The position numbers and the translations under genes were made by a program. 64,000 nt of DNA from Liolophura sinensis (Eukaryota; Mollusca; Polyplacophora; Chitonida; Chitonidae): the NCBI RefSeq assembly GCF_032854445.1, contig NC_088303.1, positions 15,569,501 to 15,633,500 on the forward strand, read 5' to 3'. Within the stretch, counting starts at the first letter, position 1; every line of letters begins with the position of its first letter. The notes beneath the pieces are model-generated. The model did no database searches. It was not told where the DNA came from and saw only the letters and a list, made by a program, of their open reading frames with translations. Below, one piece after another: positions 8,952 to 63,017 of this stretch.

Positions 8952-9458
8952 CGTGTGTCATAGTTCGGTTCAATCTGACCGTGTGTCATAGTTCGGTTCA
9001 ATCTGACCGTGTGTCATAGTTCGGTTCAGTCTGACCGTGTGTCATAGTTCGGTTCAATCTGACCGTGTGTCATAGTTCGGTTCAATCTGACCGTGTGTCA
9101 TAGTTCGGTTCAATCTGACCGTGTGTTATAGTTCGGTTCAATCTGACCGTGTGTCATAGTTCGGTTCAGTCTGACCGTGTGTCATAGTTCGGTTCAATCT
9201 GACCGTGTGTCATAGTTCGGTTCAATCTGACCGTGTGTCATAGTTCGGTTCAGCCTGACCGTGTGTCACAGTTCGATTCAGTCTGACCGTGTGTCATAGT
9301 TCGGTTCAATCTGACCGTGTGTCATAGTTCGGTTCAATCTGACCGTGTGTCATAGTTCGGTTCAATCTGATCGTGTGTCATAGTTCGGTTCAATCTGACC
9401 GTGTGCCATAGTTCGGTTCAATCTGACCGTGTGTCATAGTTCGGTTCAATCTGACCGA
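8952..9458. repeat. 28-bp minisatellite, about 18 copies
   Basis: Highly uniform tandem units with core GTGTGTCATAGTTCGGTTCA followed by ATCTGACC, period 28 bp. A few units have single changes (GTGTTATAG, AGTCTGACC, GCCTGACC, TGATCG). The last unit runs into GACCGAGACC. It lies just beyond the candidate end of ninjurin A. Confidence 0.95.
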
Positions 9459-28137: not shown

Positions 28138-31100
28138 ATGGCTTTACGTTCCGTGGCTAGGGTTACTGGCCTCTTGGAAAGGCATGTTCCCTTAATCACA
28201 GCCAACAGACAATTTTATCTGTATTCACCTGAGCCATTCCACCCTCTCGTTGACTGCACCCCTCGATGGACGTCGTCAGAGGATGCCGTGAAAGTGGTCG
28301 AGTCAGGTAGGTTATTACTAGTTAGACACGGAAAATGACCACCCAGTAATTACAGGGTAATTTGACATGACAGTTCAGATAATAACATTCTCCTGAAGCC
28401 GCCCAAAATGCCGTTCTCGATGAAGGTGGCAAAAATTGGGGGGAGTTGTAAGGACTAGGGTTATATAATTTACGTGTAGCCCCAGATGGCAACTTTAACC
28501 CCTTTCTTTATATTGGAGTTCATGCTGGCTTCCTCTCCGGCCGTAAGTGGGAAGGTCTGGCTAAAACCAGCGGATGGTCGTGGGTTTCCCCCGGGCTCTG
28601 CCCGGTTTCCACCCATCATAATGTTGGCCGCCGTCGTATGAGTGAAATATTTTTGAGTAAAGTGTAAAGTACCAATGAAAATAAATAAAATTCTTTATAT
28701 TGGACTGACGAAGTATCGCAGTCACAGGGGGAACAATAGGTACACCATATACCAATTTACGCCATGTCCGATAAGTCCTTTCCAAACAATGGCTGCAGTC
28801 CAAAAGCAGTGTCAACTTTGATTCTTACCGCTCAACTCGCCCGCACATGCAACACCTCACATATATTCCACTTGGTAAGGACACACGAGACCCAATTTCA
28901 GCTCACAGTTATGGCTAAAGCAGCCATTTTACCGTTACCACAGTTATGGGCCTTGAAAAAGTTATTGTTCCCATATGGCGAATAGGTGAAACCTGAAAGA
29001 TGTGTCGTGAATACGGGGCTGGTGTGCCATTACCGATTGGCAAATGCCTGGGATGTTGTGCGCACGGTCAAGCTGAGAGGGAAGAGTCAAAGTTGACACC
29101 ACTTTGGAACTGCAGTCATTGTTTGGAGAGGACTTAATCGGTGGATGGTTTGCCATTGGTTCCCCCTGTGGCTACAATACTTTGCCAGCCTAGTATAAAG
29201 AGAGGATTTGAAGTATTGCTTATACCAATACACCACTGGAGTTGATGTATTAGAATGTTGTTTTTAGACGCCTTTAAGATGGATGAACATGGTAAGGGTT
29301 GAATGCACATGTGGGTGTGTCACATGGTTTTGTCCCATGAACTACATCTGAAAAGGGTCTCCTCCATATTTGGATAACCTAATTCAGCGAAGGAGGAATG
29401 AATTGATGTAAGTAGTGATGTAGAAACTTAAACGTAAATATAACCCTAGTCTTTACAACAGCCAGATATGGGCTTTGTGGTCGCGTGTTTGAATCTAGCT
29501 TCAAAAGTTCAGAAGTAAGTTGCACGTTTACAACGTAGGTTTATCTGACACTGTCATGCAGTGTCACTGAGAAATGTCTGCGTGGAACCTGACTGGTAAA
29601 GGGTGGAGGTTTAAATTTCAATCAACCTATACAGTGCTGAAGTAGGCCTATAGAGGGATTGCACATGACGTCGTCACTTTGGCAGAACAGTAGCCAGGTA
29701 GCCATATTGGAGTCCTGTTAACATGAGCTGCTATAGCCACAGTACTCCAATATGGCTACGAGAAGTAGGTCATGCAATCCTTCTATACAGTTTCACTTGA
29801 ACTAAGGGTAGCCATATTAGTCTATCTGGCAACAAAAATGAAAAAGCAACGATGTTAGCACCTTATAGAGGTTAATGTTCCAAAACACAGGCCTTCAGTG
29901 TAGGAGAAACTCTGATCACATAAATGAAATAATGAATGAATAAATCATTAAGTTTAGCTATAAAATCCTGACCATGGTTGAGAGATGCTTATTTATTATT
30001 TATGTAAAGGTGAAATGTCAGGATTTCCTTCACTGATAAATGGGATATTTCAGTCGGTTTGATATCACTTTTTTCATCACCATGACATTTTAATATTTCA
30101 CACCCAGGCGTGAAAAACCATAATCTGTTTGTGGATTCCCACGACTAAAAACACTGCTTAAACTTGTTCAAATACACAAAATCATGACATTGTCAAAATG
30201 TAAATTACAAACAGAACATTGCACACTGAGTCTGAATATCGAAACTATTTTTCAATTGAGAGGTGAGAGTGATAACCCATTAGACACAAAGCTGATAACA
30301 GATTGTTAATGGTAAAACCAAAAAGACTTTCCTGTCTTTTGTCCGATAAGAACGCATCAGTTAAAGAACTTTTATGAGCAAACTTATGTTGCAAATGAAA
30401 ATGATATAATGAATCCATCAGACCATATTATTTGTCATGAAACTGTTTGTTGTGCATCAATTTGTTTATTTCTCTAGGCAACAGGGTGTTTATTCATAGT
30501 GCCGCAGCCACGCCGTTGAAGCTGGTCGACGCAATGGTGGAGTATGGCATCAAGGAGAAACTCAAGGATGTAGAATGTATCCACATTCACACAGAGGGTC
30601 CAGCATCTTATAACAAACCAGAGTGTGACGGTAAATATCCACATTCACACAGAGGGACCAGCATCTTATAACAAACCAGAGTGTGACGGTAAATATCCAC
30701 ATTCACACAGAGGGTCCAGCATCTTATAACAAACCAGAGTGTGACGGTAAATATCCACATTCACACAGAGGGACCAGCATCTTATAACAAACCAGAGTGT
30801 GACGGTAAATATCCACATTCACACAGAGGGTCCAGCATCTTATAACAAAACAGAGTGTGACGGTAAATATCCACATTCACACAGAGGGACCAGCATCTTA
30901 TAACAAAACAGAGTGTGACAGTAGATATCCACATTCACACAGAGGGACCAGCATCTTATAACAAAACAGAGTGTGACAGTAGATATCCACATTCACACAG
31001 AGGGTCCAGCATCTTATAACAAACCACAGTGTGACGGTAAATATCCACATTCACACAGAGGGACCAGCATCTTATAACAAAACAGAGTGTGATGGTAAAT

Positions 31101-34100
31101 ATCCACGTTCACACAGAGGGACCAGCATCTTATAACAAAACAGAGTGTGATGGTAAATATCCACATTCACACAGAGGGACCAGCATCTTATAACAAAACA
31201 GAGTGTGACAGTAGATATCCACATTCACACAGAGGGTCCAGCATCTTATAACAAAACAGAGTGTGACAGTAGATATCCACATTCACACAGAGGGACCAGC
31301 ATCTTATAACAAACCAGAGTGTGACAGTAGATATCCACATTCACACAGAGGGACCAGCATCTTATAACAAAACAGAGTGTGACAGTAGATATCCACATTC
31401 ACACAGAGGGTCCAGCATCTTATAACAAACCACAGTGTGACGGTAAATATCCACATTCACACAGAGGGACCAGCATCTTATAACAAACCAGAGTGTGACG
31501 GTAAATATCCACATTCACACAGAGGGACCAGCATCTTATAACAAAACAGAGTGTGACAGTAGATATCCACATTCACACAGAGGGACCAGCATCTTATAAC
31601 AAAACAGAGTGTGACAGTAGATATCCACATTCACACAGAGGGACCAGCATCTTATAACAAAACAGAGTGTGACAGTAGATATCCACATTCACACAGAGGG
31701 TCCAGCATCTTATAACAAACCAGAGTGTGACGGTAAATATCCACATTCACACAGAGGGTCCAGCATCTTATAACAAACCAGAGTGTGACGGTAAATATCC
31801 ACATTCACACAGAGGGACCAGCATCTTATAACAAACCAGAGTGTGACAGTAGATATCCACATTCACACAGAGGGTCCAGCATCTTATAACAAACCAGAGT
31901 GTGACGGTAAATATCCACATTCACACAGAGGGACCAGCATCTTATAACAAACCAGAGTGTGACGGTAAATATCCACATTCACACAGAGGGACCAGCATCT
32001 TATAACAAACCAGAGTGTGACAGTAGATATCCACATTCACACAGAGGGACCAGCATCTTATAACAAAACAGAGTGTGACAGTAGATATCCACATTCACAC
32101 AGAGGGTCCAGCATCTTATAACAAACCAGAGTGTGACGGTAAATATCCACATTCACACAGAGGGACCAGCATCTTATAACAAACCAGAGTGTGACGGTAA
32201 ATATCCACATTCACACAGAGGGACCAGCATCTTATAACAAAACAGATTGTGACAGTAAATATCCACATTCACACAGAGGGTCCAGCATCTTATAACAAAC
32301 CAGAGTGTGACGGTAAATATCCACATTCACACAGAGGGACCAGCATCTTATAACAAACCAGAGTGTGAGGGTAAATATCCACATTCACACAGAGGGTCCA
32401 GCATCTTATAACAAACCAGAGTGTGACAGTAAATATCCACATTCACACAGAGGGACCAGCATCTTATAACAAACCAGAGTGTGACAGTAAATATCCACAT
32501 TCACACAGAGGGTCCAGCATCTTATAACAAACCAGAGTGTGATGGTAAATATCCACATTCACACAGAGGGACCAGCATCTTATAACAAAACAGAGTGTGA
32601 CAGTAGATATCCACATTCACACAGAGGGTCCAGCATCTTATAACAAAACAGAGTGTGACGGTAAATATCCACATTCACACAGAGGGTCCAGCATCTTATA
32701 ACAAAACAGAGTGTGACAGTAGATATCCACATTCACACAGAGGGACCAGCATCTTATAACAAACCAGAGTGTGACGGTAAATATCCACATTCACACAGAG
32801 GGTCCAGCATCTTATAACAAACCAGAGTGTGACGGTAAATATCCACATTCACACAGAGGGACCAGCATCTTATAACAAACCAGAGTGTGACGGTAAATAT
32901 CCACATTCACACAGAGGGACCAGCATCTTATAACAAACCAGAGTGTGACGGTAAATATCCACATTCACACAGAGGGACCAGCATCTTATAACAAACCAGA
33001 GTGTGACGGTAAATATCCACATTCACACAGAGGGACCAGCATCTTATAACAAACCAGAGTGTGACGGTAAATATCCACATTCACACAGAGGGTCCAGCAT
33101 CTTATAACAAAACAGAGTGTGACGGTAAATATCCACATTCACACAGAGGGACCAGCATCTTATAACAAACCAGAGTGTGACGGTAAATATCCACATTCAC
33201 ACAAAGGGACCAGCTTCTTATAACAAACCAGAGTGTGACGGTAAATATCCACGTTCACACAGAGGGACCAGCATTTTATAACAAACCAGAGTGTGACGGT
33301 AAATATCCACATTCACACAGAGGGACCAGCATCTTATAACAAACCAGAGTGTGACAGTAGATATCCACGTTCACACAGAGGGACCAGCATCTTATAACAA
33401 ACCAGAGTGTGACGGTAAATATCCACATTCACACAGAGGGTCCAGCATCTTATAACAAAACAGAGTGTGACGGTAAATATCCACATTCACACAGAGGGAC
33501 CAGCATCTTATAACAAACCAGAGTGTGACGGTAAATATCCACATTCACACAGAGGGTCCAGCATCTTATAACAAAACAGAGTGTGACGGTAAATATCCAC
33601 ATTCACACAGAGGGACCAGCATCTTATAACAAACCAGAGTGTGACGGTAAATATCCACATTCACACAGAGGGACCAGCATCTTATAACAAACCAGAGTGT
33701 GACAGTAGATATCCATATTCACACAGAGGGACCAGCATCTTATAACAAACCAGAGTGTGACGGTAAATATCCACATTCACACAGAGGGACCAGCATCTTA
33801 TAACAAAACAGAGTGTGACAGTAGATATCCACATTCACACAGAGGGACCAGCATTTTATATCAGACCAGAGTGCGATGGTAAATATCCACATTCACACAG
33901 AGGGACCAGCATCTTATAACAAAACAGAGTGTGACAGTAGATATCCATATTCACACAGAGGGACCAGCATCTTATAACAAACCAGAGTGTGACGGTAAAT
34001 ATCCACATTCACACAGAGGGACCAGCATCTTATAACAAACCAGAGTGTGACGGTAAATATCCACATTCACACAGAGGGACCAGCATCTTATAACAAACCA

Positions 34101-37100
34101 GAGTGTGACGGTAAATATCCACATTCACACAGAGGGACCAGCATCTTATAACAAACCAGAGTGTGACGGTAAATATCCACATTCACACAGAGGGTCCAGC
34201 ATCTTATAACAAAACAGAGTGTGACGGTAAATATCCACATTCACACAGAGGGACCAGCATCTTATAACAAACCAGAGTGTGACGGTAAATATCCACATTC
34301 ACACAGAGGGACCAGCATCTTATAACAAACCAGAGTGTGACAGTAGATATCCATATTCACACAGAGGGACCAGCATCTTATAACAAACCAGAGTGTGACA
34401 GTAGATATCCACATTCACACAGAGGGACCAGCATCTTATAACAAAACAGAGTGTGACAGTAGATATCCACATTCACACAGAGGGACCAGCATCTTATAAC
34501 AAACCAGAGTGCGATGGTAAATATCCACATTCACACAGAGGGTCCAGCATCTTATAACAAACCAGAGTGTGACGGTAAATATCCACATTCACACAGAGGG
34601 ACCAGCATCTTATAACAAACCAGAGTGTGACGGTAAATATCCACATTCACACAGAGGGTCCAGCATCTTATAACAAAACAGAGTGTGACGGTAAATATCC
34701 ACATTCACACAGAGGGTCCAGCATCTTATAACAAAACAGAGTGTGACAGTAGATATCCACATTCACACAGAGGGTCCAGCATCTTATAACAAACCAGAGT
34801 GTGACGGTAAATATCCACATTCACACAGAGGGTCCAGCATCTTATAACAAACCAGAGTGTGACGGTAGATATCCACATTCACACAGAGGGACCAGCATCT
34901 TATAACAAACCAGAGTGTGACAGTAGATATCCACATTCACACAGAGGGACCAGCTTCTTATAACAAACCAGAGTGTGACGGTAAATATCCACATTCACAC
35001 AGAGGGACCAGCATCTTATAACAAAACAGAGTGCGACGGTAAATATTCACGTTCACACAGAGGGACCAGCATCTTATAACAAACCAGAGTGTGACAGTAG
35101 ATATCCACATTCACACAGAGGAACCATGATCTTATAACAAACCAGAGTGTGACGGTAAATATCCACATTCACACAGAGGGACCAGCATCTTATAACAAAA
35201 CAGATTGTGACAGTAAATATCCACATTCACACAGAGGGACCAGCATCTTATAACAAACCAGAGTGTGACAGTAAATATCCACATTCACACAGAGGGACCA
35301 TGATCTTATAACAAACCAGAGTGTGACGGTAAATATCCACGTTCACACAGAGGGACCAGCATTTTATAACAAAACAGAGTGTGACAGTAGATATCCACAT
35401 TCACACAGAGGGACCAGCATCTTGTAACAAAACAGAGTGTGACGGTAAATATCCACATTCACACAGAGGGACCAGCATCTTATAACAAACCAGAATGTGA
35501 CAGTAAATATCCACATTCACACAGAGGAACCATGATCTTATAACAAACCAGAGTGTGACGGTAAATATCCACATTCACACAGAGGGACCAGCATCTTATA
35601 ACAAACCAGAGTGTGACGGTAAATATCCACATTCACACAGAGGGACCATGATAAGTAGATAGGTGTTTTGAGGTTTGTGGGCAAGGTAAGCTGATATCCT
35701 ACTCAGAAAGTATGTTTCAACTAAAGTAATATTTTATAACACTTGTTTGCCCCTGAAAGAGAAAATTTTGAAGCAAGATTTTAGGTCATTTACTGTAAAC
35801 AAATGGAGGTATGTAGGACCTCAAGTGAAAAATCTACATTCACACTGAGGGAACAGCATCTACACTAATAACATGGCTTTAAAAATAGTTGGCCTTGAAG
35901 TGGGGGGCGGGGGGAGTGAAGGAAAAGAAGAGGTATCCATCTTATAAAACACACAGTGAAAGTATTGTGTATTGAAAGTATGTTAGTATGATTCTAACCG
36001 CTTCATTTTACAAAAAAAAAAATTGTATGTGACTGATATGGGTAGCATTGAATTATGTGTATTGTTTTTTGGGGAAGGGGGGGGGGAGGTTGTCACTTTC
36101 ATTTTCAGTTCTTGTCCACAGTATATAACTATATTCTTCTGCTTTAATTTCAGGTATTTTCCGGAGTAGTTCCTTATTTACTGGAGCAAACTGCCGAGCG
36201 GCTATAAATAGTGGCAGAGCAGACTACACTCCCATATTTCTGGGTGAAATCCCACTGCTCTTCCGAAGGAAGATTCTGAATTTGGATGTTGCCCTCATCT
36301 CAGTCAGTCCACCAGACAAACATGGCTTCTGTACGCTTGGACCCAGTGTAGATTGTACTCGAGCAGCCATACAAAATGCAAAGTACATCATCGGTGAGTG
36401 TGTGGTTAGTACTCACTAGTTACCTCCCTTAGATTAACAGACTCTCAGCATGTTCGGTACAGCAATTGAGTGCAGTCAGATGCAAATCCCTTATCTTTGA
36501 ACCAGGTCTGAATTTAAGTCACATTTTGGAAATCAAATGGAGAAAAATCTACTTTTCATGAACTGAGCAAGACCTTTCCAATCAATACCCATAAACCTGA
36601 CTGCAGTCATATAGTGAAGCTAAAGAACTTCTTCCAAATCAAATTGATAAATAAATGAAAAGGCCCTATATAGTGAAATATTGTTTGACGTACCATTTAT
36701 ATCGATTAACATTCATTCATTTTCGTGAAGCATGCTACTATACATATGCTAATAGAAAATTGTAATTAAGATTTTGATACTGGTGTAGACAGTTTGTAAC
36801 TTCTGTATGCTGCCCATTCAATTACAACTTTTACATATGCGTGTATATTAAGACATTTCTGTCTACCAACTTTATAATTCTCTAATCAAGGGTTACATGT
36901 ATTAATTAGTACTTTTCAGGATATTACATGTAGATCATATATGTACTTTTGACATTATTATGAGATTTGACTCGATGGACAGAGGCCTCTGTGGCTCAGT
37001 TGGTAAGCGCACTAGCGCAGCGTAATGACCCAGGAGCCTCTCACCAATGAGCTGAGTTCAAGTCCAGCTCATGCTGGCTTCCTCTCTGGCCGTAAGTGGG

Positions 37101-40100
37101 AAGGTCTGCCAGCACCTTCGGATGGTCTTGGGTTTCTGCTCGGTTTCTTCCCACCATAATGCTGGCAGCTGTCGTCTAAGTGAAATATTCTTGAGTACGG
37201 CATAAAGCACCAATCAAATGAATAAATAAATTGAATCGATAGACAGATTTGAGGCATATCCTTATGTACATGTATGCATTTTGACCTGTAAATGTATGAA
37301 CTCCAGCAAATTGATAATATTGTCCATGAATATTCTTGTGCAGTGGTAGCTATTATTATCAAAAACTTTTTTTATTTTATTTCAAATTTTATTCACTTCT
37401 TGAAATGAACTAATTTATGTGTTCCCTGTTGCAGGTTTGGTCAACCAGAAGATGCCAAGGACGTTTGGGGATGGAGTCATCCACAGTTCACATTTTGATG
37501 CGATGGTGGAAGAGGATTTGCCTCTTTATGAGTTAAAAACACACAAGCCAAGCCCTGCAGAAAAGGCTATTGGTCAGTTGATTGCAGACAACCTTGTTCA
37601 GGATGGGGCTACTTTACAGATGGGTGAGTGTAAATTTTGTAGGATTACTAGTTCATACTGAAAGCAGTTCCCTGGCTTACTAGAGGCAAACTCTTGACAC
37701 TATCGTGACAACTTACGCTTGGGCCTTAATGTATCTAACCCTCTTTTAAAAATATGTAAAATGTATTTATTTGGTTTGTTGGTGTTTTAGGTCCTCCTTA
37801 AGAATATTACTCTGACCTAAGACAGTATTATAATATGGTGGGAGGAAAGTGGGCAGAGCTCAGGGGAAACTCAAGGCCATTTGCAGGTTCCTAAATATGT
37901 AAAAAAAAAAACTTTAATTCATCACAGGTTGAAAGAGAGATTGTCATTAGGATATGTAAATTCAAGTAGCAAGAGACAACCTATCAATTTTGTGAACATT
38001 ACCATCTCTACAGGTATTGGCAGTATACCTGATGCTGTCCTGTCTGCTCTCAAGACCCACCGTGACCTTGGCATTCATTCTGAGATGGTGAGCGATGGAA
38101 TCATTGACCTTGTGGATTGTGGTGCTGTGACAAATGCCCGTAAGGTCATCCAGACTGGCAAGATCGTCACTGGCTTTGCAATTGGGACTGAAAGACTGTA
38201 CAAATTTTTGGATGACAATCCATTTATAGGTGAGTTTTGGAATGTTTGAGATGATTTATATACTTTCTTATTTTACAGATCTGATGAATGTTGTGAACTT
38301 TTTTCACTGTCCATAGTTTTTCTACTTAGCATTTATTTTTATATGCCCCACCTTAGGCAAAGCATATTGTTACAGCGATTTTGTCCATCTGTACGTCTGT
38401 ATTTGTGTCGGGGCTATAATTGCAATTGTTTTCCACATAGTTTTAATTTTTGGCGTATACATAGATATACAGTCACGGCTCACATTTGTCCATTTTCACT
38501 TTTGCCATGGTAACCAGGTTTTCCTTACATATACTAAATAAATAGAAATGATTTCTTTTTCCAGGCTACAACTCCAATTGTTTTCCGCAGAAAGTTTTCA
38601 TTTTTGTCAGACACATTTGTCATGTGGTTGTCATGGTAACCACGTACCTATCATCAACACCTATGAAGATTCCCATCAGGGGTTATATTCACTGCAGTGC
38701 TGTTGGTATTCTTTTATACATTTCAAACAAATGCATTTGTTGGGGCATATGTTGTGTTCACCTGAACTCTTCGTCATAAATTCCAGTGTGTTGAACAATC
38801 TCTTTGAGAAGTTATAAACTGAGTATTCCAACCTATAATTTATGCGGCAACAACAACATCATTGAGAATGTGTCAACATGTAGTCTTTCCAGTTCTTTGA
38901 AAACTTTTGACTGTATGAAGAGACCACAGTCCCAGTTTACAATGGAGGTAGTTGCAAACTGTGTCTGGCATAAATTACATGACAATGTATGGTGTAGAGA
39001 TATGTCACCATGGTAAATGCACTTGGCGTACTGCATTGTAAAACAGGGCCCTGGTGTTTTCACATCCTTTGGGCTCTCTTATTAGTTTTCACCTGTACAC
39101 AGCAGATGTTATTTCACTTGTGCACAACAGACGTAATTTCACTTGAAAGGACAGAGCAAGGAAACGGGACTGCTTGGCCTGGTATCAGTAAAGTGTGACT
39201 AGGTGGGGTGTCATATCTAGTGTCTTTGGCATGATTCTTTAGTGGTGGCAGTACTTTGGTGGCATGGATATGCCCTACTACAAGAAGACACTGTATATGT
39301 ACACACAATTAATGACTCCCCGGCATACATACATACATGTACATACATACGTTTACCCTGGATTCTACGATGCACAGTTCAGAAGGCCACCAGCACCACT
39401 GTGGACCTGTTCTGGTGTGGGACATTATTTCATTTTGATGAGACTACATCAAAACACATGTACACATCATCACTGGGGTAAATGTATACCCAGGGTGCGG
39501 TTGTTTGAAACTGTTTCAAGACTTATTACCAAACTGAACTTTAAGCCAAGTCTTCAATTTTGTACTTAGCCCAAAAATAATTGTGTAACTGAATATTAAA
39601 TATGTACTAAATCTGCTGCTTTTATACTCTGACTTTGAACAGCTATATTGGCTGCAGAGTTGGGCTAAAATCTTAAATATAAAACTTAACTTAATTGACT
39701 TAATACAAGTATTAGCTAATACACTTTCAAACAACTGGGCCCTGTATCTGCAGTAAATGGACATAGGGACATTTATGTGTTATTTTCTGTATACATGATT
39801 ATCTATATGCACTGACTTTGGACAGGTTCCTACATTTATCTCTCTGTCAGATGGTTAGCCCATGATTCAGAAACCTCTCAAGGTCACTGTGAGGTCATGT
39901 CAACTTCAGACATGTTAGACATGCTTCCTCTCCGGTCAAACATAGGAAACTCCAGCAACTTGGGGATGATCGTGGCTTTCCACTGGGCTCTTCCCAGTTT
40001 CCTCTAACCATAATGCTGGCTGCCATTGTATAAGTGAAATGTTCTTGAGTGCGGTGTAAAACACCAGTGAAATAAATATATAAAATGAAGAAAAATAAAA

Positions 40101-43052
40101 GTCTTGTTTCTAACATTACAGCCCTCGCATGTATGTACACCAGAGTAGTTAATTTAAGGAAGTGTGTTGCAGTTGATCTCTTTGGTGTGTGCATTAAAGA
40201 AAAAAAGAGTCATGTTTAAAGACTTAAGAAGTCTTTAAACATGACTTTAAACATTAAAAATAATCAGATGAAGGAGGTTAAGTTTATGCATGAAGTTCTT
40301 GATTTTTTCTGCACTGTCATTAGTATGTTTCTGTAATTCTGTATTAGCCACTCAATGGCCTTCTCTTATGCATATCACTATCCATTATTATTTTTTCTCT
40401 GGACAGTATTTATGTCTGAAGTAAACACAATCAGTCTATCTATATAACTCCTGAATGAGATGTAACTAAGATTTATTACAACAAAAAACACACATTCCAT
40501 ATTTCACCAAAAATGTAATAATATTGAAATACACTTAATTTGTCACCAAACTGCTAGGGAACATGTACTGTGATCACAAACCCATCCCGTGCTTGTATTA
40601 ATTGCATTCTGTTTTTCTGTTACAGTTATGTGTGATATTGCTTTCACCAACTCAACAGCCATCATTTGTCAGAATCCTAAAGTCACTGCCATAAACTCCT
40701 GTATAGAAGTGGACCTGACAGGACAAGTTGTATCAGACTCTATTGGAACAAGAATTTATTCTGGTTAGTGGATATAAGTATATTCCCTGTATTTTATCTC
40801 TTATTTTTTGTGAGCTTTTAATCCCAGTGGCCATTTTAAGGAAATCTGATATGCTGGGAAATAAGAATTTCATGAAATTTATCTCAAAAGATATTGTATC
40901 TCTTGCTAAAAATTAAATTATTTCCTGTCAAAACATGTGTACAGATTTTCCTGGTTTTGTACAGTTTTGAGAAGTACACGTATTAAGGTCATTGATGAAA
41001 GTGGTGAAAACTGAGTCATGCATGTTTTTGTACAACTCTGATGTTTTACTCATGTCCTTCTAGTTTCATCCACACTTAAAGCTGGTCATCATCTTATATA
41101 TGAGCACAAATATGCTAAAGTGTTATTTTATACTGATGTCTATTATGTATGGGATCCACTTGTTTTCTGTTTCAGTGGTCAGTTTAACGCTTAAAGTCAT
41201 AGCATGCAAAGTTTGGAGTCAATCCTTTACTTTTGAATATAAAAAAATATGTTATATATGTTCACAAGTGCTATCTTTACAGAGGGGATTTGTAACATGC
41301 CAGGTGTCACCATGTACAATGGTCGGTGTTAGTTTTAAATAAATCTCAAGAGAATAATTTAAAGAAAATTGGGGCATTAAAATCATCTAAATGTAAAAAT
41401 AAATGTACTTTTAAAGTTTACCCTTGCATATGTTAGTTTTGTTCGTCAAAAGCAAAGTTAATCTTCAGGATATTTGTTTATCGCCCAGTGCAAGCCATCA
41501 GGAGATCCAGTATCATTGTTTCATGTTGGAAGCAGGTTTATTTAAAATATGAACTCAATTTGTATGTGGCATTGATTTATAATGAATTTATTATCATTTC
41601 AAAAGAAGCCTTAAAGTGTCTGTCAAAATATAACATACCCAAGACAGCAGCCTATTTATACCTCCTGTGCTTCTCAGGCAAAGCTTTATTTATGAATGTC
41701 ATGATCACTGACTTATCTTTTGCTGTATATTTTATGAACAGTATGTGTTCTTGCTGTTATTTGTTCAGTAATATATATTGTCCTCTCATTGTGACATCTC
41801 TGTCACTGTTTAAGCTCCAGTGGAATGTTAATCATCACTGAAATGACATAATACATTCCACTACAGACTTCTGTCAGTATTCCAATAAATTAATCTTTAC
41901 ATGTGTCCTCTGTTAAACACCTTGCAATTATTTAACTAGAAGTTGAGGTTTTCCCACTGTACAGGTATGTAAATATACATGTAACTGATGATTAAGGTGT
42001 CTGACCCTCACTCTTTTTATTTGCATTAGGGGTGGGAGGTCAGATTGACTTTGTCCGCGGGGCGGCACTCAGTCTGGATGGCCTAGGGAAGCCTGTACTA
42101 GCCATGCCATCTACCACCAACAAAGGAGAGTCAAAGATAGTTCCATTCATCAAAGAAGGTAACCTCCAGTGTATTACGAGAATTATTCTCATGCAGAAAA
42201 ATGAAGTGAGCATCAGGAGAAAGGCCATTGAAAACTCTCTCTGTAATTGTGTGTGACATTTTAGCTGAATCATATGTATGCTGTCAAATATTACATTCTG
42301 TAAGGTGGCCTTTTTTTCTTTATATTCAGAATTTTTAGAGAACATTATTTAAGTAATCGTTTACTCATTTGTAATAAGAGCAGTTCTATTAACCAAAGCT
42401 ATATTCAGGGAAAAAGATTTTGTGACGTCAGAGTACCTAAACACAATTAAGCTATGCGGTTCATGAAGCCCAAACAATACAAACATTGAATGTATTTAAC
42501 TCTCTTCAGTGAAATATAAGAAAGTAAATGAAAGTATTTTTGCACAGTCTTCCATCTGATGAACCTTACTTTATCTGTCAGTTTAATACTACAGGTACAT
42601 GTATACATATGATATTTGCATGAATGTCGTCATGTATTTTGAAAATAACTTTCTATGATGTGGATATATACAGGTATGTTTTATCAAGAGTATTTAAGGA
42701 CATTGATTGTTGTGAGGTGTACACTGAAGATAATTCCACAGAATTACACATACATGTATTCTTCAGGAGTGTTCATCCAAAGGAAAAAAATAAATAAATA
42801 AATTAAAAAAATGAATAAAGTTGAAGAAGTAGTTGTTTTACAAATATGGTTTTATTCTTGGTGACAGGTGCTGGTGTTGTGACAACGAGAGCCCATGTCC
42901 ACTACATAGTCACGGAGCACGGCATCGCCTATTTATTCGGAAAGAATCTCAGGCAGCGAGCATACGAGCTGATCAAGATAGCTCATCCTGATCACCGGGA
43001 AAGTCTAGAGAAAGCTGCATTTAACAGGCTCAAATGTATGCCTTCACCTTAA
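28138..43052 (+). CDS. Acetyl-CoA hydrolase / 4-hydroxybutyrate CoA-transferase family enzyme, mitochondrial
   Basis: Eight exons: 28138-28306, 30478-30630, 36154-36393, 37435-37623, 38014-38229, 40626-40763, 42030-42158 and 42868-43052. They total 1419 nt and 472 residues, with GT-AG at every junction. All seven introns are phase 1 and every internal exon is a multiple of three. Residues 1-30 are rich in Arg and hydrophobics without acids, as in a mitochondrial targeting peptide. The N-terminal half carries VFIHSAAATP, the HIHTEGPASY block and ISVSPPDKHGFCTLGPSVD. The C-terminal half carries GIGSIPDAV, then GIHSEMVSDG, whose Glu (about residue 274) corresponds to the glutamate that forms the covalent CoA-thioester in this family. 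VGGQIDFVRGA, STTNKGESKIVP and VHYIVTEHGIAYLFGK follow. Family members move CoA between acetate/butyrate-type acids. The exact acyl substrates cannot be read from sequence. Intron 2 is mostly a 58-bp satellite copied from the end of exon 2. Confidence 0.95.
28518..28690 (+). mobile_element. tRNA-derived SINE (family 1), 5' truncated
   Basis: Lies in intron 1 of the CoA-transferase gene. Shows TTCCTCTCCGGCCGTAAGTG, GGATGGTCGTGGGTTTCCCC, GTTTCCACCCATCATAATG, and an ATAAATAAAA tail. A perfect 14-bp target duplication, TTCTTTATATTGGA, sits at 28504-28517 and 28691-28704. Confidence 0.95.
29648..29788. mobile_element. Imperfect foldback element
   Basis: Nested inverted repeats. Outer arms are CTATAGAGGGATTGCACATG (from 29648) and its near complement ending at 29788 (GTCATGCAATCC, TTCTATAC). 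Inner arms are a perfect 16-bp pair, GTAGCCATATTGGAGT (29698-29713) and ACTCCAATATGGCTAC (29744-29759). Non-coding, in intron 1 of the CoA-transferase gene. Probably a miniature inverted-repeat element. Confidence 0.65.
30578..35652 (+). repeat. 58-bp satellite derived from an exon end and its splice donor, about 87 copies
   Basis: The unit reads GTAAATATCCACATTCACAC, AGAGGGACCAGCATCTTATA, then ACAAACCAGAGTGTGACG (58 bp; starts at 30631, 30689 and so on). The first copy is the last 53 bp of coding exon 2 (codons for IHIHTEGPASYNKPECD) plus the authentic 5' splice site at 30631. The array therefore repeats exon end plus donor about 87 times inside intron 2. Common variants are GGGTCCAGC/GGGACCAGC, AAACCAG/AAAACAG and GACGGTAAAT/GACAGTAGAT. 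Because 58 is not a multiple of three, and an in-frame TAA appears one unit past the true donor (30669-30671), only the first donor gives the full protein. Confidence 0.97.
35828..35870 (+). repeat. Detached, diverged satellite unit
   Basis: AAATCTACATTCACACTGAG followed by GGAACAGCATCTACACTAAT aligns with the 58-bp unit over about 43 bp with several mismatches. It lies about 175 bp beyond the array. It is likely an old unit left outside the homogenised block. Confidence 0.7.
36984..37230 (+). mobile_element. Full-length tRNA-derived SINE (family 1), reference copy
   Basis: Intact architecture of about 247 bp. The tRNA-like head has an A box TGGCTCAGTTGG (36992-37003) and a B box GAGTTCAAGTCC (37054-37065). 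A conserved core follows (GGATGGTCTTGGGTTTC, TTCTTCCCACCATAATGCTG, GTGAAATATTCTTGAGTACG) and the tail is AATGAATAAATAAA. A 17-bp target duplication with two mismatches, TTGACTCGATGGACAGA (36967-36983) and TTGAATCGATAGACAGA (37231-37247), bounds it. Lies in intron 3 of the CoA-transferase gene. The core may belong to the MetaSINE/Deu-like group of widespread metazoan SINEs, which I cannot verify here. Confidence 0.95.
37763..37887 (-). mobile_element. Diverged SINE fragment (family 1)
   Basis: GTTTTAGGTCCTCCTTAAGA, ATATGGTGGGAGGAAAGTGG and GCAGAGCTCAGGGGAAACTC match the family tail and core in minus orientation. In intron 4 of the CoA-transferase gene. Confidence 0.75.
38341..38750. mobile_element. 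MITE-like element with ATATGCCCCA ends
   Basis: Begins ATATGCCCCA (38341) and ends TGGGGCATAT (38750), a perfect 10-bp terminal inverted repeat around 390 bp of non-coding DNA. The interior contains two related phrases, TTTGCCATGGTAACCAGG and TTGTCATGGTAACCACG. A TA dinucleotide precedes the left end. Located in intron 5 of the CoA-transferase gene. Confidence 0.65.
39918..40086 (+). mobile_element. tRNA-derived SINE (family 1), 5' truncated
   Basis: CTTCCTCTCCGGTCAAACAT, GATGATCGTGGCTTTCC, CAGTTTCCTCTAACCATAAT, GTGAAATGTTCTTGAGTGCG and a GTGAAATAAATATATAAA tail. In intron 5 of the CoA-transferase gene. Confidence 0.85.
40208..40246. repeat. Perfect 18-bp hairpin
   Basis: AGTCATGTTTAAAGACTT (40208-40225), a 3-base spacer AAG, then AAGTCTTTAAACATGACT (40229-40246). 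The arms are exact reverse complements. In intron 5 of the CoA-transferase gene; no flanking duplication seen. Confidence 0.9.
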
Positions 43053-48213: not shown

Positions 48214-49113
48214 ACTGTTGCCACTGTGTAAGTGTTCTTGTGGTGATGGCCTCCTGGTGGTGGCGTGGACGTATGTTAGCCTGATAGCTCAGCGGAGTAT
48301 TGACAGATGCCTTGTGTTAGCCTACTTCATTGTTGCCACTTTCCGAGCGTTCTTCTCGTGATGCCACTTCCTGAGCGCTCTTTTCGTGTGTGGGTTTGGT
48401 GTTTTAGTGTTTTACGCCGTACTCAAGAATATTTCAATTATACGACGGCGGCCAGCATTATGGTGGGAGGAAACCGGGCAGAGCACGGGAAAAACCCACG
48501 ACTATCCGCAGGTTGTTGACAGACCTTCCCACTTTCGGCCGGAGAGGAAGCCGGCATGAGCTGAACTTGAACTCACCGCATTGGTGAGAGGCTTCTGGGT
48601 CATTACACTGTGCTAGCGCGCTAACCGACTGAGCCACGGAGGCCCCTTCGTTCTTTTCGTGATGGTGATGTGGTGCGTATGGGCTATGTGCGTGGAGTGG
48701 TGTCCCAACCCTGTAAAGTGCCGGTGTTGGCATGTTGCCACTTCCTGAGGGCTCTTGTCGTGATGGTGATATTGTGCTTGGAGTGGTGTCCAAACCCTGT
48801 CGGATGCCCTGTGTTGACATGTTGTCATTTCCTGAGGGCTCTTGTGGTGATGGCGATATTGTGCTTGGAGTGGTGTCCCAACCCTGTCGGGTGCCCTGTG
48901 TTGACATGTTGTCACTTCCTGAGGGCCCTTGTCGTGATGGCGATATTGTGCATATTTGTGCGAGGAGTGGTGTGCCAACCCTGTCAGATGCCTTCTGTTG
49001 GCATGTTGTCACTTTCTGTGGGCTCTTATCGTGATGGCGATATTGTGCATATTTGTGCGTGGAGTGGTGTGCCAACCCTGTCAGGTGCCCTGTGTTGGCA
49101 TGTTGTTAGCCAT
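48214..49113. repeat. 86-97-bp tandem repeat array, split by a SINE
   Basis: Units contain GGAGTGGTGTCC(C)AACCCTG, TGCCCTGTGTTGACATGTTG, TCACTTCCTGAGGGC and TCTTGTCGTGATGGCGATAT. Unit starts at 48694, 48780, 48867, 48964 and 49061 give spacings of 86, 87, 97 and 97; the longer form adds GTGCATATTTGTGC. Weaker unit fragments occur at 48214-48402, before the inserted SINE. The 205-residue minus-strand open frame here (48458-49075) is an artefact of the repeat. Confidence 0.85.
48403..48646 (-). mobile_element. Full-length tRNA-derived SINE (family 1)
   Basis: Minus orientation. Tail (GTTTTACGCCGTACTCAAGA), core (GGTGGGAGGAAACCGGGCAG), TTCCCACTTTCGGCCGGAG, then head with B box (ACTTGAACTCACCG) and A box (CTAACCGACTGAGCCACGG). 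It sits inside the 86-97-bp array. CGCTCTTTTCGTG (48376-48388) and CGTTCTTTTCGTG (48649-48661) flank it as a likely target duplication. Confidence 0.92.
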
Positions 49114-62817: not shown

Positions 62818-63017
62818 NNNNNNNNNNNNNNNNNNNNNNNNNNNNNNNNNNNNNNNNNNNNNNNNNNNNNNNNNNNNNNNNNNNNNNNNNNNNNNNNNNN
62901 NNNNNNNNNNNNNNNNNNNNNNNNNNNNNNNNNNNNNNNNNNNNNNNNNNNNNNNNNNNNNNNNNNNNNNNNNNNNNNNNNNNNNNNNNNNNNNNNNNNN
63001 NNNNNNNNNNNNNNNNN
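62818..63017. other. Assembly gap (200 N)
   Basis: Run of exactly 200 unresolved bases, the size typical of a placeholder gap, so true length is unknown. Open frames spanning it are meaningless. Confidence 1.

Follow-up and report, generated by a model that had tools for sequence, protein, structure and literature searches.

A 58-bp minisatellite built from an exon end and its splice donor in a chiton CoA-transferase-like gene

We analyzed a 64,000-nucleotide stretch of the genome of the chiton Liolophura sinensis (contig NC_088303.1, forward-strand positions 15,569,501 to 15,633,500), referred to here as the window, with coordinates counted from its first nucleotide. A predicted 4-hydroxybutyrate CoA-transferase-like gene in this window carries, at the end of its second exon, the first of 87 complete tandem copies of a 58-bp unit that joins the exon end to the splice donor of intron 2. 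The reading that we favor, at a rough probability of 0.75, is that this array is a largely neutral minisatellite of the kind described as “mirages” in lancelets, tolerated because the first donor (donor 1) wins by position. The array is a very large, extreme case of the known boundary-minisatellite kind and shares its structural features: each unit spans the exon–intron boundary, with 53 exonic and 5 intronic nt, and the host gene is open, with its authentic junction, as aligned to homologues, at the edge of the array.

Host gene and tandem array

The gene model was built from GT/AG sites and homology, with boundaries set by eye, and the features on which the argument depends are as follows.

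28138–43052, plus strand: coding gene model, 8 exons, 472 amino acids
28138–28306, 30478–30630, 36154–36393, and 37435–37623, plus strand: exons 1 to 4
38014–38229, 40626–40763, 42030–42158, and 42868–43052, plus strand: exons 5 to 8
30478–30630, plus strand: exon 2 of the CoA-transferase gene, 153 nt
30578–35652, plus strand: 58-bp array, 87 full units and a 29-nt partial 88th (Tandem Repeats Finder and unit layout)
30578–30635, plus strand: unit 1, the functional copy, with 53 nt from the end of exon 2 and 5 nt from the start of intron 2
36154–36393, plus strand: exon 3, with the acceptor AG of the array-bearing intron at 36152–36153

The model is open over 472 codons, with no internal stop. 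Residues 43 to 465 of its product align to PDB entry 9vag, a 4-hydroxybutyrate CoA-transferase structure (E 7.3e-142), and the partial protein encoded by exons 2 to 4 matches Pfam PF02550. This 194-residue piece scores 75.6 bits against NCBIfam TIGR03948 and 21.4 bits against TIGR03458, both far below the curated cut-offs, and the substrate is thus not named by these models; the predicted product is assigned here to a family and not to a substrate. Its N terminus appears to resemble a mitochondrial presequence. In alignments to solved 4-hydroxybutyrate CoA-transferases, the join of 30630 to 36154 is gapless, so that this protein depends on the donor at 30631. An earlier reading of the sequence alone (the sequence-only reading), which this analysis followed up, had named an exon 2 ending elsewhere as grounds for its own rejection; judged by homology, the donor needed for the protein does lie in the unit.

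We searched the whole genome (609,464,459 bases in 632 contigs) for related genes. Searches with PF02550 (one match, in exon 3) and PF13336 (three matches, in exons 6, 7, and 8) reveal no second locus, although they missed half of the exons of this gene and can miss other loci as well. Within those limits we reject paralogue rescue, in which a second gene would let the CoA-transferase gene decay.

Tandem Repeats Finder places the 58-bp array at 30578–35648 (87.4 copies, 95% matches, 0% indels, score 9085), and a script-based layout resolves it into 87 complete units of exactly 58 bp without indels (30578–35623), followed by a partial 88th unit of 29 nt that takes the array to 35652. The intronic part of unit 1 is GTAAA. 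The full units fall into 30 sequence types with a mean pairwise difference of 4.57%; 38 of the 58 columns are invariant, and nine intronic units are exact copies of the exonic unit 1. The sequence-only reading had described an intronic satellite of about 87 copies in about 5 kb, at 30578–35652, with a unit of 53 coding bases of exon 2 and the start of intron 2 that arose by amplification of an exon end with its splice donor. Copy number, extent, and composition of the unit were recovered here, and the gene model, homology, and frame analysis support the proposed origin; the word intronic needs qualification, as unit 1 is mostly exonic and it is the 86 further units that the intron holds.

Donor sites and the fate of decoy transcripts

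Three further features concern the donors and their consequences.

30631–30636, plus strand: donor GTAAAT of intron 2, needed by the protein; U1 duplex −5.5 kcal/mol
30689–35623, plus strand: 86 decoy donors, one per 58 bp, GT intact in all (first GT at 30689, last at 35619)
30669–30671, plus strand: TAA in unit 2, ending every decoy-spliced or read-through frame

The donor GT is kept in 87 of 87 units, which is unremarkable and no evidence of selection, because 38 of the 58 columns are invariant anyway. Over the 87 units, the most frequent donor 9-mer is ACGGTAAAT (49 units, including unit 1), followed by ACAGTAGAT (25), ACAGTAAAT (6), and the rarer ATGGTAAAT (5), AGGGTAAAT (1), and ACGGTAGAT (1). 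The G at position −1 is lost in 31 of the 87 units. As a proxy for donor strength we used the energy of the RNA duplex with the 5′ end of U1; this energy is −5.5 kcal/mol for ACGGTAAAT and −1.9 kcal/mol for the forms with A at −1. The earlier description of about 86 decoys in the same context as the true donor stands for their number and their GT and has to be narrowed for their context, the identical 9-mer being present in only 48 of the 86.

On read-through into the array, the first stop is the TAA at 30669–30671, as had been claimed, and the same codon is the first stop met at each of the nine decoy lengths computed (1, 2, 3, 4, 5, 6, 9, 30, and 86 extra units); because unit 2 is contained in every decoy transcript, this stop applies to all 86 decoys. 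The outcome is binary, in that donor 1 leads to protein and any other donor leads to a truncated frame. The gene model, homology, and frame analysis thus bear out the earlier statement that an intact protein requires the first donor. The 58-nt frame change per skipped unit, which the sequence-only reading had stressed, is real but not decisive, as the common early stop ends these isoforms. Since the exon 2 end sequence common to donor 1 and any decoy is at most 53 nt, a junction read that covers 54 nt or more of the exon 2 side is enough to tell donor 1 from any decoy. For this species, RNA-seq with 150-bp paired reads has been described for digestive gland, foot, gill, gonad, and heart (PMC11068029).

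Donor choice by position and the alternatives

We propose that tandem duplication of a segment of 53 exonic and 5 intronic nt was followed by amplification and partial homogenization, probably by unequal exchange, up to 87 units, with the true exon end presumably kept as unit 1 because it codes for a conserved protein. Productive transcripts would join donor 1 to exon 3, as appears to be required by an open gene that has no second locus in the searches above. Since 48 decoys share the identical 9-mer and near-identical flanks, position must largely decide between the donors. Donor 1 is the donor closest to the upstream acceptor (30477) and closes an exon of 153 nt, where decoys would give exons of at least 211 nt; it is set apart by its distance to that acceptor, by the 100 nt of exon 2 that precede the array, and by the order of transcription. 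U1 may occupy many decoys with only one donor committed, and a case in which both of two alternative donors are occupied while only one is used has been reported (PMC5861446). Decoy-spliced transcripts would be non-productive and likely degraded. RNA structure was considered as a donor selector and rejected, as the first three units fold like shuffled sequences (z −0.67; 45 of 200 shuffles fold equally well). In the first copy, the one that was folded, a small hairpin with the donor GT paired reaches z −1.86, a value equalled in 9 of 200 shuffles, and because its sequence recurs in other units it does not single out donor 1.

Several observations weigh against this account. Classical duplicated-donor assays tend to favor the intron-proximal site, whereas the reverse is required here, and human IFI6 reportedly uses two downstream repeat donors. 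The use of donor 1 is itself deduced from sequence. By the U1 proxy, the intron 2 donor ranks last in strength among the seven in the model (−5.5 versus −6.3 to −12.3 kcal/mol), and the donor of unit 31 is slightly stronger than donor 1 (−6.2 versus −5.5 kcal/mol), so that strength does not explain donor choice. As for the proposed exchange, adjacent units resemble each other no more than expected by chance (lag 1, p 0.41); of six lags, only 7 and 19 show raised unit similarity (p about 0.01 each), and these two were chosen after an earlier look at the array; and the best repeated run spans five units, a length of at least five being reached in 18 of 1000 shuffles. Traces of unequal or block-wise exchange are weak, and a higher-order repeat structure was rejected as weak.

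A weak donor with 48 exact 9-mer rivals, and the convergence of every decoy on one stop, would also suit an unproductive-splicing rheostat, in which some transcripts use the second or a later donor, stop at 30669–30671, and are degraded, such that array length sets enzyme output, perhaps in a regulated manner; the downstream repeat donors reported for IFI6 point the same way. We nevertheless consider such a rheostat unlikely. The boundary repeats of lancelets reportedly leave splicing undisturbed (PMC3087553, PMC3902484), the variant spectrum of the decoys is near neutral, and the loss of the −1 G in 31 of 87 units is not what regulation predicts; moreover, the first three units fold in an ordinary way (z −0.67). 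Its length-variable form, in which 86 near-identical decoys are set against a weak donor and length differences between individuals or tissues tune CoA-transferase output, is quite improbable. With 87 donor-like sites in 5 kb, the array could also draw U1 to the 5.5-kb intron and so prevent its premature cleavage and polyadenylation (telescripting), or keep U1 close to the weak donor 1. However, U1 pairing is weak at each site (−1.9 to −6.2 kcal/mol), and AATAAA and ATTAAA are absent from 30631–35648, so that there is nothing to protect against; we give this role very little credence.

We are slightly more skeptical still that the copy number is an assembly artefact, whether by expansion or by collapse. 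Reads of the published assembly are reported to average 8,347 bp at 14x (PMC11068029), by our estimate probably only a handful of them span 5 kb plus flanks, and haplotypes could differ in copy number; yet the array comprises 30 unit types with private variants scattered through it, holds no long duplicated blocks (longest repeated run five units) and no N, and derives from an assembly described as built from PacBio HiFi reads (PMC11068029). Least credible of all is that the tandem duplication created intron 2 itself, by intron gain at AGGT or dual-specific sites as in polyubiquitin. Introns have been described to arise through tandem duplications that carry splice signals (PMC10809524, PMC3087553), but AGGT occurs 0 times in 30578–35648 versus 212 times in the window, and the unit does not include the acceptor of intron 2, which is located about 500 bp further downstream.

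The array is a useful natural splice-competition experiment, with 49 donors of the same 9-mer and near-identical flanks in one natural transcript, only one of which can make protein. Because sequence strength is nearly constant, junction counts would directly measure the effect of position on donor choice, and positional factors such as the distance to the upstream acceptor and the order of transcription thereby become measurable.

Turnover, known relatives, and other repeats

In the genome, the unit was found only at this locus. A genome-wide pattern search allowing up to three mismatches gives 88 matches, all 88 in this array (87 units and the partial one), while on the other strand the unit pattern gives 0 matches, as does a reversed-pattern control, at the same threshold. 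A genome DNA search with the unit gives at least 48 matches, and 48 of 48 lie in this array. Dispersed satellite DNA is thus rejected, the matches in both searches falling in this one array. One decayed piece was found outside the array.

35828–35861, plus strand: decayed unit fragment, 30 of 34 bases matching, score 48

This score compares with a maximum of 32 in 1000 shuffles and with a next best score of 28 among 778 scanned window stretches outside the array, and the fragment suggests that the array or a forerunner probably once extended further. A second candidate fragment near 35929–35958 was rejected: 15 of 1000 shuffles attain its score of 24, and unrelated window stretches score higher, up to 28. 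Divergence is greatest in the last 12 units, with 2.33 changes from the consensus versus 1.47 to 1.86 in the three other bins, the bins being set by eye. Relative to unit 1, the variant types of the exonic part comprise 14 non-synonymous and 7 synonymous changes (33% synonymous, where 24% of possible changes are synonymous; no formal test was applied). From this variant spectrum and the invariant columns, the decoys look neutral, with no sign of selective maintenance. The nine intronic copies identical to unit 1 are as expected from exchange or recent spread, and the array would be accounted for by the usual turnover of a minisatellite in which selection retains the coding copy.

A satellite born from an exon–intron boundary had been called unusual in the sequence-only reading, which holds for its size but not for its kind, given the lancelet mirages and the human IFI6 minisatellite. 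What sets the chiton array apart is its size, the fact that no decoy gives a full-length protein, and its lineage. Human IFI6 (also 6-16 or G1P3) has, near the end of its exon 2, about 26 copies of a 12-nt unit. To judge by the title of a 1995 report by Turri et al., this minisatellite is said to supply multiple splice donors to the transcript, and two downstream repeat donors are reported to give isoforms. The chiton array likewise starts close to the end of an exon and provides many donor sequences; it differs in its unit of 58 nt rather than 12 nt, and in that decoy isoforms cannot include the next exons, every downstream donor leading to the stop at 30669–30671.

Mirages are described in lancelets as minisatellite-like tandem copies of exon/intron boundaries in Adh3, globins, troponin C, and PGBD5, the copies in PGBD5 being imperfect, and are reported not to disturb splicing and to be unstable in length (PMC3087553, PMC3902484). 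Within this group, the globin gene BflGb6 is reported to have 6 and 3 units in two haplotypes, with the acceptor side copied, and BflGb9 one duplicate of the 3′ boundary of an exon, that is, of the donor side (PMC3087553). As far as these accounts go, the chiton array resembles mirages in its tandem boundary copies inside a working gene, many of them with splice signals, and it shares duplication of the donor side with BflGb9, in contrast to BflGb6. It differs from them in its host, a mollusc rather than a cephalochordate, and in having 87 units instead of 6 and 3 or one duplicate; moreover, splicing and length behavior are reported for lancelets, whereas the chiton array is known from the sequence of one assembly. 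In human segmental-duplication genes, variable internal tandem repeats (on average 30 bp and 4 copies) are reported, with boundary cases linked to novel introns (PMC2812944); there, as here, minisatellite growth across an exon–intron boundary alters gene structure, but the acceptor of the chiton intron lies outside the repeat. The polyubiquitin gene UBC is a further reported splice-site tandem array within one gene, in which dual-specific AGGT sites take either splice role, donor or acceptor, and mark off coding repeats (PMC10809524), in contrast to the AGGT-free chiton array. Searches of an open-licence library for boundary or donor repeats and intron gain showed no molluscan case. Boundary minisatellites thus apparently occur in a mollusc too, and the 87 units of the present array far exceed the 6 and 3 reported for the two lancelet BflGb6 haplotypes.

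Other repeats of the window include a second compact minisatellite at 8952–9457 (28-bp unit, 18 copies, 96% matches), which lies on no exon of the gene model, and an imperfect 87- to 97-bp tandem repeat at 48687–49106 (2.6 to 4.6 copies). A transfer RNA-like repeat stretch lies at 36985–37200 and appears to resemble a molluscan short interspersed element. The sole run of N in the window, 200 bases at 62818–63017, is probably a scaffold gap. In the genome as a whole, a search for the GFP family, which had no positive control, gave no match. A lancelet as the source of the DNA, considered in view of the mirages, was set aside because the molluscan haemocyanin family PF14830 gives eight consecutive matches at G000:C8:37880506-37891931.

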